This document shows positions 5,925 to 53,127 of a stretch of 64,000 nt of DNA, piece after piece. This stretch comes from Ilumatobacter coccineus YM16-304 (GTDB lineage Bacteria > Actinomycetota > Acidimicrobiia > Acidimicrobiales > Ilumatobacteraceae). Numbering within the stretch: the first letter of the stretch is position 1; every line of letters starts with the position of its first letter. The notes under the pieces were generated by a model. The model saw nothing but the letters and a program-made list of their open reading frames with translations, had not been told where the DNA came from and did no database searches. The stretch lies in the NCBI RefSeq assembly GCF_000348785.1, contig NC_020520.1, positions 2,232,001 through 2,296,000 on the forward strand, read 5' to 3'. The position numbers and the translations under genes were made by a program.

Positions 5925-7196
5925 TCAGGAGAGGAAGGCCGTGAGGGCTCGCGCGAGGTGGGTCGGGTCGTCGCTGCCGCAGAGCTCACGGGCGGAGTGC
6001 ATCGAGAGTTGGGGGACGCCGACGTCGACGGTGGCGATGCCGAGTTGCGTCGACGTGATGGGGCCGATGGTGGAGCCACACGGCATGTTGTTGCGTGACA
6101 CGAACACCTGCCAGGGCACGCCTGCGTCGTCGCACGCCTGTTGGAACAGGGCGGCGGTCTCGGCGTTGGTGGCGTAGCGCTGGTTGGCGTTGACCTTGAG
6201 CGCCGGGCCGGCGTTGATCATCGGGAGGTGGCCGGGTTCGTGCCGGTCGACGTAGTTGGGGTGTACCGCATGAGCGTTGTCGGCCGAGACGCACGCCGAC
6301 GCAGCGAGGGCACGGTGGTAGTCGCTGCGGTCGCCGCCGAGTGCGGTGACCAGTCGTTCGAGCACGACGGCGAGAAACGGTCCCTGGGCGCCGGTGGCCG
6401 ATGACGAGCCGACCTCTTCGTGGTCGTTGAACACGGCGACGGCGATGTGCTCGGTCGGATCGGCGTCGCCGAGCGCCCGAGTCGCCGACCAGCACGACAG
6501 GAGGTTGTCGAGGCGGCCGGAGGCGAGCATCGATCGGTCGGCGCCGATGAGTGCAGCGCCTTGCACGTCGTACAGGCACAGTTCCCACCACGCTGGAGCG
6601 GTGTCGAGTTCGGCCCGTGCGCCGATCCAGTCGCCGAAGATTCCGCTGCCGCCGCTGGTGATGTCGCTGCCCACACCCCAGACCGGAGTGAGGTGCATCT
6701 GCGGATCGAGCTTGAGCCCGTCGGTGTTGACGCCGCGATCGAGATGGACGGCGAGCTGCGGAACGCGAGCGATGGGTTCGTCGACCTGGACGAGCGTGAC
6801 CGTACCGTCGGCTGCGACCACACGTCCGGCCACGCCGAGGTCGCGGTCGAGCCACGTGTTGTTGAGGATGCCGCCGTACACCTCGACGGCGAGTTGCTTC
6901 CAGCCGAGCATGTTCACGTCGGGGTTCGGCTTGACCCGCAGGCACGGCGAATCGGTGTGTGCACCGGCGATCCGGAACCCGCTGGTGGGCGACGCTTCGG
7001 CGGGGAGACGCCACGCGATGATGGCGCCGCCGCGAACGACGTAGCCGGCGGCCGGGATGTTGGCCCAGTCGTCGTGTTCGTCGAGTCGTTCGAACCCGGC
7101 GAGTCGGTCGACGGTCGATTCGACCGCGTGCCACGGCGACGGTGAAGCGTCGAGGTAGGCGATGAGGTCGTCGATCGAGTCGTCGGTGTGTGTCAT
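5925..7196 (-). CDS. M18 family aminopeptidase
   Basis: 423 aa, a zinc metallo-aminopeptidase releasing N-terminal (often acidic) residues in the cytoplasm. Metal-ligand regions are visible in order: AHTDSPCLRVKP, FNDHEEVGSSSATGAQG, SADNAHAVHPNY and SMHSARELCGSDD near the C-terminus. Length and domain order match bacterial M18 (PepC/ApeA type). The ATG at 7196 begins right where homology starts, 2 nt after the stop of the histidine phosphatase gene, so the two form an operon. Confidence 0.9.
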   Translation of the reverse strand: MTHTDDSIDDLIAYLDASPSPWHAVESTVDRLAGFERLDEHDDWANIPAAGYVVRGGAIIAWRLPAEASPTSGFRIAGAHTDSPCLRVKPNPDVNMLGWKQLAVEVYGGILNNTWLDRDLGVAGRVVAADGTVTLVQVDEPIARVPQLAVHLDRGVNTDGLKLDPQMHLTPVWGVGSDITSGGSGIFGDWIGARAELDTAPAWWELCLYDVQGAALIGADRSMLASGRLDNLLSCWSATRALGDADPTEHIAVAVFNDHEEVGSSSATGAQGPFLAVVLERLVTALGGDRSDYHRALAASACVSADNAHAVHPNYVDRHEPGHLPMINAGPALKVNANQRYATNAETAALFQQACDDAGVPWQVFVSRNNMPCGSTIGPITSTQLGIATVDVGVPQLSMHSARELCGSDDPTHLARALTAFLS

Positions 7197-31320: not shown

Positions 31321-31376
31321 TACCTTGCCGTTCTGCCCGTCAAGTGAGTCCCGAGAGGCTCATACGGAAAGGAAAA
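31321..31376 (+). promoter_or_regulatory. pyrR leader with a PyrR-binding loop
   Basis: A TACCTT at 31321-31326 is a possible -10. The transcript would carry a stem TGAG/CTCA at 31345-31362 around the loop TCCCGAGAGG. This fits the PyrR RNA-binding consensus AGUCCNGNGAGGCU. The Shine-Dalgarno AAAGGA follows within 15 nt, with no terminator between, which suggests translational repression rather than attenuation. Confidence 0.7.
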
Positions 31377-31907
31377 ATGAACGAATCCCGTGAACCACGG
31401 GAGCCCAAGTCGGTCTTGGGCTCTGACGATGTGCGCCGAGCGACGACTCGGATGGCACACGAGATCATCGAACGAAACCAGGGCCTCGATGGCGTGGCCC
31501 TGATCGGCATCCAGACCGGTGGCGTCTGGGTCGCCGACGCACTGGGCGGCGAGATCGCCCGTATCGACCCCGACTCGGCGGTTCCCGTCGGCTCGATCGA
31601 CGCATCGCTCTACCGCGACGACATCGGCCTCCGGCCCGTGTCACCCGCCGCGGTGAGCGACATTGACTTCGACATCGACGGCATCACCATCGTCCTCGTC
31701 GACGACGTGCTCTTCACCGGGCGCACCGTCCGAGCGGCGCTCGACGCGCTCGCCGACTACGGCCGACCTCGAGCGGTCCAGCTCGCTGTGGTCGTCGACC
31801 GCGGTCACCGCGAACTGCCGATCCGACCCGACTACGTCGGCAAGAACCTGCCCACCAGCAGCGACGAGAACGTCGCGGTCACCGCCGACGGGGTGGTCAT
31901 CTCGTGA
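31377..31907 (+). CDS. pyrR: Bifunctional pyr operon regulator / uracil phosphoribosyltransferase
   Basis: 176 aa. The PRPP-binding motif is TIVLVDDVLFTGRTVRAALD (about 101-120), with LIGIQTGGVWVADAL as the PPi loop and VVVDRGHRELPIRPDYVGKN as the RNA-binding and active-site region. It senses UMP and binds its own leader. First gene of the pyrimidine operon. Confidence 0.93.
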   Translation: MNESREPREPKSVLGSDDVRRATTRMAHEIIERNQGLDGVALIGIQTGGVWVADALGGEIARIDPDSAVPVGSIDASLYRDDIGLRPVSPAAVSDIDFDIDGITIVLVDDVLFTGRTVRAALDALADYGRPRAVQLAVVVDRGHRELPIRPDYVGKNLPTSSDENVAVTADGVVIS

Positions 31908-31956: not shown

Positions 31957-32919
31957 ATGAGTCGCTCGCTGTTGTCGATCGAGGAACTCGGGGCCGACGG
32001 TGTACACCGCATCCTCGAACTGGCCGACACCATGGCCGAGGTCAACCGACGCCCCAACCCGAAGGTGCCCGCGTTGCGCGGCAAGACGGTGTGCAGCGTG
32101 TTCTTCGAGGACTCGACCCGCACCCGGCTCAGCTTCGAGACGGCGGCCAAGCGGCTCTCCGCCGACACGATGACCTTCGCCGTGTCACAGTCGAGCTTGA
32201 GCAAAGGCGAGAGCCTGAAAGACACGATCGAGACGATCGCCGCGATGGGCGTCGACGCGTTCGTCATCCGCCACGGCTCCACCGGCGCCCCGTGGCTGGT
32301 CGACAACTGGACGTCGGCGTCGGTCGTCAACGCCGGCGACGGCTGGCACGCCCACCCGACGCAGGCGCTGCTCGACATGTACACGGTGCGAACCGCACTC
32401 GGACGCACCGGCGGCTTCGACGGCCTGCGCGTGGCGATCGTCGGCGACATCAAGCACAGTCGAGTCGCCCGCTCGACCTCGGCGGCGTTCCACGCGATGG
32501 GCGCCGACGTCACGTGGGTCGCACCCCGCACGCTCCTTCCTCCGGTGTTCCACGAACACCACACCGAATCGCTCGACGACGTGATCGGTCCCGACGGCAG
32601 CGGCGTCGACGTGCTCTACATGCTGCGCATGCAGAACGAGCGGATGACCGAAGCACTCGTGCCGAACCTGCGCGAGTACACGAGCCGCTTCGGGCTCACC
32701 CCAGCCCGGGCCGCCCGCCTGGCGCCACACACGCTGATCATGCACCCGGGGCCGATCAACCGCGGCGTCGAGATCGCCGTCGATCCCGCCGAACTACCGG
32801 GCGCCGTCATCACCCAGCAGGTCACGAACGGCATCGCCGTCCGCATGGCCGTGCTCTTCGACCTGCTGTCGGCCGACGCCGACCCCACCTCCGACCTCGA
32901 ACGACCGGACTTCGCATGA
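31957..32919 (+). CDS. pyrB: Aspartate carbamoyltransferase, catalytic subunit
   Basis: 320 aa. The carbamoyl-phosphate site is FFEDSTRTRLSFETAAKRL; SLSKGESLKDT, DGWHAHPTQALLDMY, LRVAIVGDIKHSRVARS and LIMHPGPINRGVEI are the other signatures. No pyrI regulatory subunit is present, as usual in actinobacteria. GGGGGAG precedes the ATG at 31957. It overlaps pyrC by ATGA. Confidence 0.95.
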   Translation: MSRSLLSIEELGADGVHRILELADTMAEVNRRPNPKVPALRGKTVCSVFFEDSTRTRLSFETAAKRLSADTMTFAVSQSSLSKGESLKDTIETIAAMGVDAFVIRHGSTGAPWLVDNWTSASVVNAGDGWHAHPTQALLDMYTVRTALGRTGGFDGLRVAIVGDIKHSRVARSTSAAFHAMGADVTWVAPRTLLPPVFHEHHTESLDDVIGPDGSGVDVLYMLRMQNERMTEALVPNLREYTSRFGLTPARAARLAPHTLIMHPGPINRGVEIAVDPAELPGAVITQQVTNGIAVRMAVLFDLLSADADPTSDLERPDFA

Positions 32920-34211
32920 CCGACTCCACGTCCCTCCTCATCACCGGTGCGAACGTCATCGATGCCACCGGTGAACGACTCGCCGACGTGCGCATCGCCG
33001 ACGGCACGATCACCGACGTCGCCACCGGCCTGACCGCCGCCGACGGCGAACACCACATCGATGCCGCAGGGCTCACGCTCACACCAGGCTTCGTCGACCT
33101 CCACACCCACCTCCGTGAGCCGGGAAAGGAGGAGGCCGAGACGATCGAGACGGGTTCCCGTGCGGCCGCCAAGGGCGGGTACACCGCCGTGGTGGCGATG
33201 CCCAACACCGACCCGACGCAGGACTCGGTGAGCGTCGTCGACTTCGTTCGCCGACAGGGCCAGCTCGCCGGTCTGTGCGATGTGTACCCGTCGGGATCCA
33301 TCACCGTCGGTCGGCAGGGCACGCAGCTGACCCCGTTCGGCGAACTCTCCGAAGCCGGCGTGAAGCTGTTCACCGACGACGGCAACGGCGTGCAGGACGC
33401 GCTGCTCATGCGGCGAGCGTTCGAGTACGCCAAGGGGCTCGGCGTCACGATGGCGCAGCACTGCGAAGTCGAGCAACTGACCGGGGGAGCGGTGATGCAC
33501 GAAGGCGACTGCTGCAGCCATCTCGGCCTCCCCGGCTGGCCGTCGCTCGCCGAGGAATTGATGGTCCACCGCGACATCGAACTCGTTCGTCTGACCGGCG
33601 CACCGGCGCACTTCCTCCACCTGTCGACGATGAAGAGCGTCGAGTTGGTGCGGGCCGCCAAGGCCGACGGGCTGCCGGTGACCGCCGAGGCCACACCGCA
33701 CCACATCAGCCTGACCGACGAACTGCTCCGTTCGTACAGCGCGATCTACAAGGTGAACCCGCCGCTGCGCACGATGGACGACGTGACCGCCGTGCGCGAG
33801 GGGCTGCGCGACGGCACCATCGACGCGGTCGCCACCGACCATGCCCCGCATGTGCCCGAGAGCAAGGAGCAGCCGCTCGATCAGGCACCGCCCGGCATGC
33901 TCGGTCTCGAAACGGCGCTCGGCGTGTGCATTGCGCACCTCGACATGCCGCTCGTCGACATCGTCGCGGCGCTTTCGTGGAAGCCGGCGGCCATCGCCGG
34001 CATCGACGACGTGCACGGCCGCCCCGTGGCCGTCGGCGAGCCAGCCAACCTCACACTCTTCGATGCCGACGTGAGCTGGGAGGTCGTCCCCGCCGAGTTG
34101 GCCAGCAAGTCACGCAACACCCCCTTCGTCGGCGTCCCGCTCCGCGGGCGCACGACACACACGATCCTCGACGGCACGTTGACGGTCGAGAACGGAACTC
34201 CCACACGATGA
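32916..34211 (+). CDS. pyrC: Dihydroorotase
   Basis: 431 aa, the long type-I amidohydrolase form. It shows DLHTHLREPGKEEAETIETG with the HxH metal site, TDDGNGVQDALLMRRAFEYA, AQHCEVEQLTGGAVMHEG, AEATPHHISLTDELL and ATDHAPHVPESKEQP with the catalytic Asp. It cyclises carbamoyl-aspartate to dihydroorotate. Translationally coupled to pyrB. Confidence 0.95.
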   Translation: MTDSTSLLITGANVIDATGERLADVRIADGTITDVATGLTAADGEHHIDAAGLTLTPGFVDLHTHLREPGKEEAETIETGSRAAAKGGYTAVVAMPNTDPTQDSVSVVDFVRRQGQLAGLCDVYPSGSITVGRQGTQLTPFGELSEAGVKLFTDDGNGVQDALLMRRAFEYAKGLGVTMAQHCEVEQLTGGAVMHEGDCCSHLGLPGWPSLAEELMVHRDIELVRLTGAPAHFLHLSTMKSVELVRAAKADGLPVTAEATPHHISLTDELLRSYSAIYKVNPPLRTMDDVTAVREGLRDGTIDAVATDHAPHVPESKEQPLDQAPPGMLGLETALGVCIAHLDMPLVDIVAALSWKPAAIAGIDDVHGRPVAVGEPANLTLFDADVSWEVVPAELASKSRNTPFVGVPLRGRTTHTILDGTLTVENGTPTR

Positions 34212-34230
34212 GACGGAACCGACGCACCAC

Positions 34231-34268
34231 AATGAATGAACATTCGCTACGATGCATGAACATGCAGT
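34231..34268 (+). promoter_or_regulatory. Two ARG boxes straddling the carA -10
   Basis: Box 1 is TGAAT-GAAC-ATTCG (34233-34246; 9 of 10 arm bases match the classical TGAAT/ATTCA palindrome). Box 2 is a perfect TGCAT-GAAC-ATGCA (34253-34266). Their centres are 20 bp apart, the spacing of paired ArgR operators, and the two 18-bp boxes are separated by 2 bp. A TACGAT hexamer at 34248-34253 sits between them and is the likely -10. ArgR bound here would block transcription of carAB. Confidence 0.7.
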
Positions 34269-34287
34269 CCACTCGAAAGGCGTCGTC

Positions 34288-35415
34288 ATGACGGGGAAGA
34301 CGGGCAACGCGGTCACGGAAGGAGCGCTCGTCCTGGCCGACGGTTCGGTCTTCGAAGGCGAGCTCATCGGAGCGCACGTCCCCGTCTCGACCGGCGAGGT
34401 GGTGTTCAACACCGTGCTGAGCGGCTATCAGGAGGTCATCTCCGACCCGAGCTACGCCGGCCAGATCATCACCTTCACGTACCCGCACATCGGCAACTAC
34501 GGAATCAACGCCACCGACTTCGAGTCGGTCGGCACGTTCTGTCGTGGGGTGATCGTCCGCGATCTCGCTCGTCGGCACAGCAACTTCCGAGCGCAGTCCG
34601 ACCTCGGCTCGATGCTGTTCCAGCAGGGCGTGCCCGGCATCGCCGGCATCGACACCCGTCGGCTCACCCGGCTGATCCGTGACCACGGCGCCGTCCCCGG
34701 TGCGTTCGGCTCCGCGTCCGAGAGCGAACTGCTCGCGGCCGCACAGGCCGAACCCGGCACCGATGGCGTCGACCTGGTCAAGACGGTCACCACGCCGGTC
34801 GGCTACACCGTCCAGGCCACCGATCCCGCCAGCCGACGCACGATCGTGGCCATCGACTTCGGCATGAAGCGCAACATCGCCAACAACCTGGCTCGCTTCG
34901 GTCGTGTCGAAGTCGTCCCCGCCACCACGAGCGCCGGCGACATCCTGGCGATGGACCCGAGCGGCGTGTTCCTCTCCAACGGGCCGGGTGACCCGGCGAT
35001 GTCGCCGTACGCCGTCGACACCATTCAGGGCCTGCTCGGCGAGTTGCCGATCTTCGGCATCTGCCTCGGACACCAGTTGCTCAGCCGGGCCATCGGTGCC
35101 GACACCGTGAAGCTGCCGTTCGGCCACCACGGCGGCAACCACCCGGTGAAGAACCTGCTCGACCAGCGGATCGAGATCACGAGCCAGAACCACAACTTCG
35201 CCGTCGACGCGAGCACGCTCCCGTCGAACGCGGAGATGACCCACATCAACCTCAACGACGACGTGTGCGAAGGCATCCGTGTCGAGAGCGAGCGAGCGTT
35301 CAGCGTGCAGCACCACCCCGAGGCCAACCCCGGACCTCACGACGCCAACTACCTGTTCGACCAGTTCGCCGACCTGATGGATGCGTCGGCGTCGACCGGA
35401 AAGGCCGGTGCCTGA
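34288..35415 (+). CDS. carA: Carbamoyl-phosphate synthase small subunit
   Basis: 375 aa. N-terminal CPSase small domain ([20 protein letters not shown], then [19 protein letters not shown]) and a C-terminal class I glutaminase with the nucleophile Cys259 in [15 protein letters not shown] and the His-x-Glu pair in [16 protein letters not shown]. It supplies ammonia to CarB. GAAAGG lies 7 nt before the ATG at 34288. The dedicated promoter with ARG boxes suggests separate control from pyrRBC. Confidence 0.95.
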
Positions 35416-35416
35416 C

Positions 35417-38749
<3,333 letters not shown>

Positions 38750-52707: not shown

Positions 52708-53127
52708 TCAGCCCTTGATCTGGACGAACGCGAGACGGATGTTGTTGAGCGCCTCGACCATGGTCGGTGCATCGGGGCCGAGCCGGTCGCCGAGTCCGTC
52801 GACGAGACAGGCGACCGCGTCGATGGCGAGCGCCGCCTGGACGAGGTCGGGTTCTTCGGCCGACAGGTGGATCGCAGCGAGCTCGTACAGCCCCATGACG
52901 TGGTTGGTCACGACGACTTCGGCCGGCACGTCGGCGAGTCGGGCTCGCGCCTCTTCCATGGCCTGCTGCGCCTCTTCGATCTGGCTGCGCTGCTCCGGGT
53001 CGAGGTCGCTCAGGTCGAACTCGCCGGGGCCAGCGGGGCCGTCTGTGGCCTCGCCTCCGTCGTCGTCGTCGGCCGAGCCGAAGCCCGAGAGGTTGGCGTT
53101 GAGATCGTCGAAGTCGGAATCGCTCAC
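52708..53127 (-). CDS. DUF1844 family protein
   Basis: 139 aa. A disordered acidic N-terminus (1-55, DDDDGGEATDGPAGPG) is followed by a helical domain with VVTNHVMGLYELAAIHLSAE and ALAIDAVACLVDGLGDRLGP, and LNNIRLAFVQIKG at the end, which fits DUF1844. Location near infC also fits other actinobacteria. GTG start with TATCGT 6 nt upstream. Confidence 0.7.
   Translation of the reverse strand: MSDSDFDDLNANLSGFGSADDDDGGEATDGPAGPGEFDLSDLDPEQRSQIEEAQQAMEEARARLADVPAEVVVTNHVMGLYELAAIHLSAEEPDLVQAALAIDAVACLVDGLGDRLGPDAPTMVEALNNIRLAFVQIKG

Follow-up and report, generated by a model that had tools for sequence, protein, structure and literature searches.

A predicted ArgR-repressed carAB promoter nested in a PyrR-type pyrimidine operon of Ilumatobacter coccineus

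In Escherichia coli, the P2 promoter of carAB is repressed ~50-fold by arginine-bound ArgR at two ARG boxes three base pairs apart; transcripts that begin at P1, the promoter under pyrimidine control, can proceed (PMC6245113). For Streptomyces coelicolor, published work describes a typical ArgR site as two contiguous 20-nucleotide boxes, equivalent to 20 bp from centre to centre, together with ArgR binding to pyrR, pyrB and pyrA fragments and expression of the pyr genes that rises close to fourfold without ArgR (PMC5839063, PMC3293853). An arginine-repressed carAB promoter (in E. coli) and ArgR binding in a pyr cluster (in Streptomyces) are already known. The instance described here, from the 64,000-nucleotide stretch of the Ilumatobacter coccineus YM16-304 chromosome that was analysed (the window), appears to be new, and a search of the open-licence literature by title found no paper on an Acidimicrobiia carA operator. 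It is very probably a carAB promoter repressed by ArgR, set within a PyrR-type operon and analogous to carAB P2 of E. coli.

The genes of interest lie in the order pyrR, pyrB, pyrC, carA, carB, as judged from their reading frames and, in the case of pyrR, pyrC, carA and carB, from matches to the respective families; the assignment of pyrB was read from its translation, with no family match behind it. The features referred to below are as follows.

31347-31360, + strand: PyrR-type RNA loop, AGTCCCGAGAGGCT, closely followed by GGAAAGGA and the pyrR ATG
31377-31907, + strand: pyrR (reading frame and family match)
32916-34211, + strand: pyrC, dihydroorotase (family match)
34233-34246, no strand: ARG box 1, TGAATGAACATTCG, matching TGNATNNNNATNCA at 7 of its 8 fixed letters
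34248-34253, + strand: predicted -10 hexamer TACGAT of a carA promoter, lying in the linker and sharing its last base with box 2
34253-34266, no strand: ARG box 2, TGCATGAACATGCA, matching all 8 fixed letters of TGNATNNNNATNCA
34275-34280, + strand: likely carA ribosome binding site GAAAGG, read from the sequence
34288-35415, + strand: carA, carbamoyl phosphate synthase small subunit (family match; inferred start codon)
35381-38749 (ORF limits), + strand: carB reading frame, with a TIGR01369 match from window position 35420

The carB family gave five hits in the genome, and only the carB of the window scored over the cut-off, so that dual control of carbamoyl phosphate synthase makes metabolic sense. 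The corresponding search for carA gave three hits, one of them full length and one weak and partial (31%, E-value 9e-13).

Both ARG boxes are 14-bp palindromes, and their centres, at 34239.5 and 34259.5, are 20 bp apart, in agreement with the original prediction; counted as 18-bp units, they are separated by 2 bp. They share the 76-bp gap between pyrC, whose stop codon ends at 34211, and the likely carA ATG at 34288, with box 1 starting 21 bp past the end of the pyrC stop. The hexamer TACGAT, which had been placed between the boxes, is present there, and its final T is also the first base of box 2. From the sequence we infer ArgR binding, promoter activity, arginine repression and read-through from pyrR, and propose that the two palindromes form one tandem ArgR operator. 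Arginine-loaded ArgR, presumably a hexamer, would occupy both boxes, covering the -10 element and the start of the carA promoter, and plentiful arginine would turn the nested promoter off. Some carAB would still come from the pyr transcript that starts upstream and is subject to PyrR at the leader loop, and the single carbamoyl phosphate synthase would thereby answer to both end products.

The likeness to E. coli P2 (PMC6245113) lies in two tandem ARG boxes at what is here a predicted carAB promoter specific for arginine, with transcription under pyrimidine control probably arriving from further upstream, and in a lone carbamoyl phosphate synthase that serves both pathways. There are also clear differences: the E. 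coli boxes are 3 bp apart and lie over the -35 element, whereas those described here are 2 bp apart around a predicted -10; the E. coli carAB genes are unlinked to the pyr genes, whereas here they lie inside the pyr cluster; and the E. coli P1 start is 67 nucleotides away, with sites for PurR, RutR, PepA and IHF, whereas here a PyrR-type loop is found ~2.9 kb upstream (PMC6245113). In Streptomyces coelicolor, pyrA, pyrB and pyrR are listed with single boxes of 5.6-9.3 bits, in contrast to the one strong pair, at carA, of the window. The carA site, as far as its sequence can tell, combines E. coli-like logic with Streptomyces-like spacing inside a PyrR-type cluster. It would add the Acidimicrobiia, for which literature searches on ArgR returned only unrelated titles, to the groups in which arginine controls the shared carbamoyl phosphate synthase, in this case from within a PyrR-type operon.

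The single box pattern is not rare, and the significance is carried by the pairing in register. Single boxes with at most one mismatch occur 3 times in the window against 1.58 expected, a count reached by 21 of 100 shuffles; genome-wide there are 314 such boxes compared to 182 for the control, and 15 exact boxes compared to 4 for a control with the pattern reversed. The abundance of single boxes lends something to the view that the palindromes are the site of another regulator, or chance occurrences, which we nevertheless regard as extremely improbable given their register, the matching site at argC and the conservation described below. Dinucleotide shuffling of the 76-bp gap, repeated 20,000 times, never produced a 20-bp pair with at most one mismatch, while 2 shuffles gave a pair with at most two mismatches and 9 with at most three. 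When the window and a 19-kb stretch carrying the arg genes were scanned for 20-bp pairs with at most three mismatches, only the sites at carA (1 mismatch) and argC (0 mismatches) were found. Spacings of 14-30 bp, scanned in the window, the arg stretch and the argG locus, yielded no pair with at most three mismatches beyond reuse of the carA and argC boxes. No further ARG pair was found in the 5 kb before carA in the window, for example before pyrR, and none more than 400 bp from carA in 53 related loci with up to 5 kb of upstream sequence. An origin of the palindromes by chance was rejected on the evidence of the shuffles, the argC twin and conservation.

The original prediction required an argR gene, and the genome (4.83 Mb, one contig) encodes a single protein that matches the ArgR DNA-binding family. 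This protein carries the DNA-binding and the C-terminal Pfam domain (PF01316, 6.5e-22; PF02863, 8.2e-19) and scores over the cut-off of TIGR01529 (argR_whole). Its C-terminal part contains GTVAGDDTM, which is similar to the motif GTIAGDDTL/I given for corynebacteria (PMC5839063). The gene is located in an arg cluster with the order argC, argB, argD, argF, argR, argH, in which argC, argR and argH were checked by family and argB, argD and argF were read from translations. The argC operator consists of TGCATGAACATTCA, six bases and TGTATGATCATGCA, a pair free of mismatches whose centres are spaced by 20 bp, as at carA; box 2 ends at L017:6197 and the argC ATG is at 6199, leaving one base between them. 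The expectation of boxes before arg genes thus holds for the argC cluster and fails for argG, which lies outside it (L198): no pair was found there, the best 20-bp pair at that locus having mismatches at 7 of 16 positions. Two further features of the arg cluster were noted. Five-base repeats (CGTGA, then CATGA units) at L017:6110-6146 lie directly upstream of the argC operator and could vary in length between strains, and there is no argJ between argC and argB (argB, L017:7113-8171).

The conservation of both operators was examined in 60 genomes, comprising the Ilumatobacter source genome and 59 relatives, with the source genome counted among those that have the pair at carA and at argC; ArgR was detected in 55 of the 60. 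A carA pair with 20-bp spacing and mismatches at no more than 3 of 16 positions, a limit chosen, like the 20-bp gap limit used below, after the data showed two clear groups, was found in 19 of the 58 genomes examined, namely 19 of 34 in the family Ilumatobacteraceae and 0 of 24 outside it, so that the predicted conservation of the palindromes in related species is borne out within one family only. The 58 consist of 55 genomes plus three (G012, G045 and G054) included by match position; two others (G005 and G006) were without a usable carA start, and for G058 only ~180 bp upstream of carA was available. The mismatch groups are well separated: 0-3 in the 19 genomes, 4 in G008, 5 in G054 (outside the family) and 6-10 in the others. 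Among spacings of 12-30 bp, 20 bp was the best in 18 of the 19 carA-pair genomes and tied in 1. The argC pair (20 bp, at most 3 mismatches) is more widespread: of the 42 genomes in which argC was examined, with its start placed by tblastn, 34 have it (31 of 32 family members and 3 of 10 others).

The carA pair is absent in 15 of the 34 family genomes examined, including two relatives of the same genus: G007, with no trace of a pair and a pyrC-carA gap of -1, and G008, in which it has decayed to 4 mismatches. At the loci of these two relatives (L131 and L132), pyrC and carA abut in one, and the decayed pair of the other retains ctacaa in its linker. A set of named loci (L018-L070, n = 53), which shares species with the 60-genome set and was left out of its counts, includes 11 in which such a pair lies within 400 bp upstream of carA, and the closest named loci mostly have Ilumatobacter or Ilumatobacteraceae in their titles. 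One of the named loci without the pair, L019, is titled Ilumatobacter nonamiensis. No pair was found in the 400 bp before carA in 27 more distant named loci (L071-L097). One locus titled Saccharibacteria (L065) has a carA (58% identical) that ranks among the Acidimicrobiia loci; it is perhaps a mislabelled bin.

Alignment of the carA pairs on box 1 revealed TA at linker positions 2-3 in 12 of the 19 (the -10 counts rest on the 55-genome carA set, with G012 left out), giving TANNNT with the first T of box 2, as in TACGAT, TATTAT, TACAAT and TAGAAT. By comparison, TA occupies 9 of 1,482 places in the 40-bp flanks of the same pairs, and the next-highest place within the pair, inside box 1, has it in 6 of 19. 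Since a -10-like TA is kept at the linker place, the notion of boxes straddling a -10 is supported. Within the same genome, the argC operator shares with carA the boxes, the 20-bp register and the presence of one pair, but the predicted argC -10, TATGAT, lies inside box 2 and would place the message start at or next to the ATG, whereas the predicted -10 of carA is 7 bp further upstream, in the linker. The same difference is found among relatives: TA at the linker place is present in 3 of 34 argC pairs versus 12 of 19 carA pairs (Fisher p = 5e-5), and in 33 of 34 argC pairs bases 3-5 of box 2 read TAT, mostly within TATGAT or TATGGT. TAT also occurs in box 2 of three carA pairs that lack the linker TA (G023, G030 and G034), and in four of the 19 (G016, G017, G026 and G029) a -10 is seen at neither place. 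A single type of operator thus seems to accommodate the -10 at either of two positions separated by 7 bp.

This anatomy bears on the direction of control. ArgR might bind the carA boxes and either activate carAB or leave it unaffected, and work on Streptomyces does describe a case, glnA, in which expression needed ArgR as an activator. We consider such a role at carA very improbable, as the boxes cover the predicted -10 and start, the same register is found before argC, and the Streptomyces pyr genes are derepressed without ArgR (PMC5839063, PMC3293853). The claim that carAB has its own arginine-repressed promoter is instead supported by the ArgR gene, the argC twin, conservation and the -10-like element, and on this sequence evidence the conserved ArgR operator is very probably real and an internal carAB promoter is probable.

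A scan of 34100-34400 for sigma-70 promoters and terminators found no site, and no -35 was seen at the expected distance from TACGAT. Weak -35 elements are common in actinobacteria. The lack of a -35 near carA, and the location of the pair inside a gene cluster in the window, would suit an operator that mainly stops RNA polymerase coming from the pyr promoter, with little or no promoter at carA. This possibility is unlikely in our judgement: the -10-like element is kept at a fixed place between the boxes; the pair is present in 5 of 5 family genomes whose ~1.4-1.5 kb preceding carA contain no pyrC, a setting that makes read-through from pyr genes improbable; and in E. coli, transcription from P1 passes ArgR at P2 (PMC6245113). 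The five genomes are drafts whose upstream neighbours were read by eye, and their best pyrC match is on another contig.

On the pyrimidine side, the element AGTCCCGAGAGGCT at 31347-31360 has 0 mismatches to the PyrR loop consensus, and the pyrR leader stretch is predicted to fold into a hairpin (z = -2.25). Similar loops, with at most one mismatch, are present in 24 of 53 related loci, and 23 of them lie 2.7-3.3 kb before carA; of the 29 loci without a loop, 8 have less than 2.8 kb of upstream sequence. An Rfam search of the whole window returned no family at the gathering score, the PyrR element included. As the loop adjoins the pyrR ribosome site, its position suggests control of pyrR translation rather than of termination. 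Translational control has been proposed for mycobacterial PyrR, and a literature search by title on this topic found no paper. PyrR-controlled read-through into carAB, as originally put forward, remains plausible from the PyrR-type loop, while the position of that loop suggests a translational mechanism in place of termination. Another PyrR-loop-like match with one mismatch, at window 53081-53094, is probably due to chance.

The presence of the carA pair varies with the gap between pyrC and carA. In family genomes in which pyrC precedes carA, the pair is found in 14 of 18 with a gap of at least 20 bp and in 0 of 10 with a gap of less than 20 bp (Fisher p = 1.5e-4; gaps were measured to the alignment-inferred carA start in the 55-genome set, with G012 left out), leaving four with the wider gap and no pair. 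In those 14 genomes, the start of box 1 ranges from 6 bp before to 21 bp beyond the last base of the pyrC stop. The link is suggestive and in part follows from the geometry, as a gap of less than 20 bp leaves little room for a 34-bp pair, and adjustment for kinship left 5 independent comparisons with no significant association (sign test, median p = 0.25). A quick tree built for 30 family genomes implies at least 9 changes of state for the carA pair. We tentatively hypothesize, at somewhat less than even chances, that in the Ilumatobacteraceae the two -10 registers could set different depths of arginine repression, and that the carA operator has been repeatedly gained and lost, the losses occurring as pyrC and carA close up, such that species switch between dual and pyrimidine-only control. 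Presence and absence among close relatives offer a natural series for the cost or benefit of dual control. The carA loci with no pyrC in the upstream stretch are L143, L144, L149, L152 and L162, and in two of them (L149 and L152) the upstream gene resembles, by eye, the membrane gene that precedes the pyr genes in the window.
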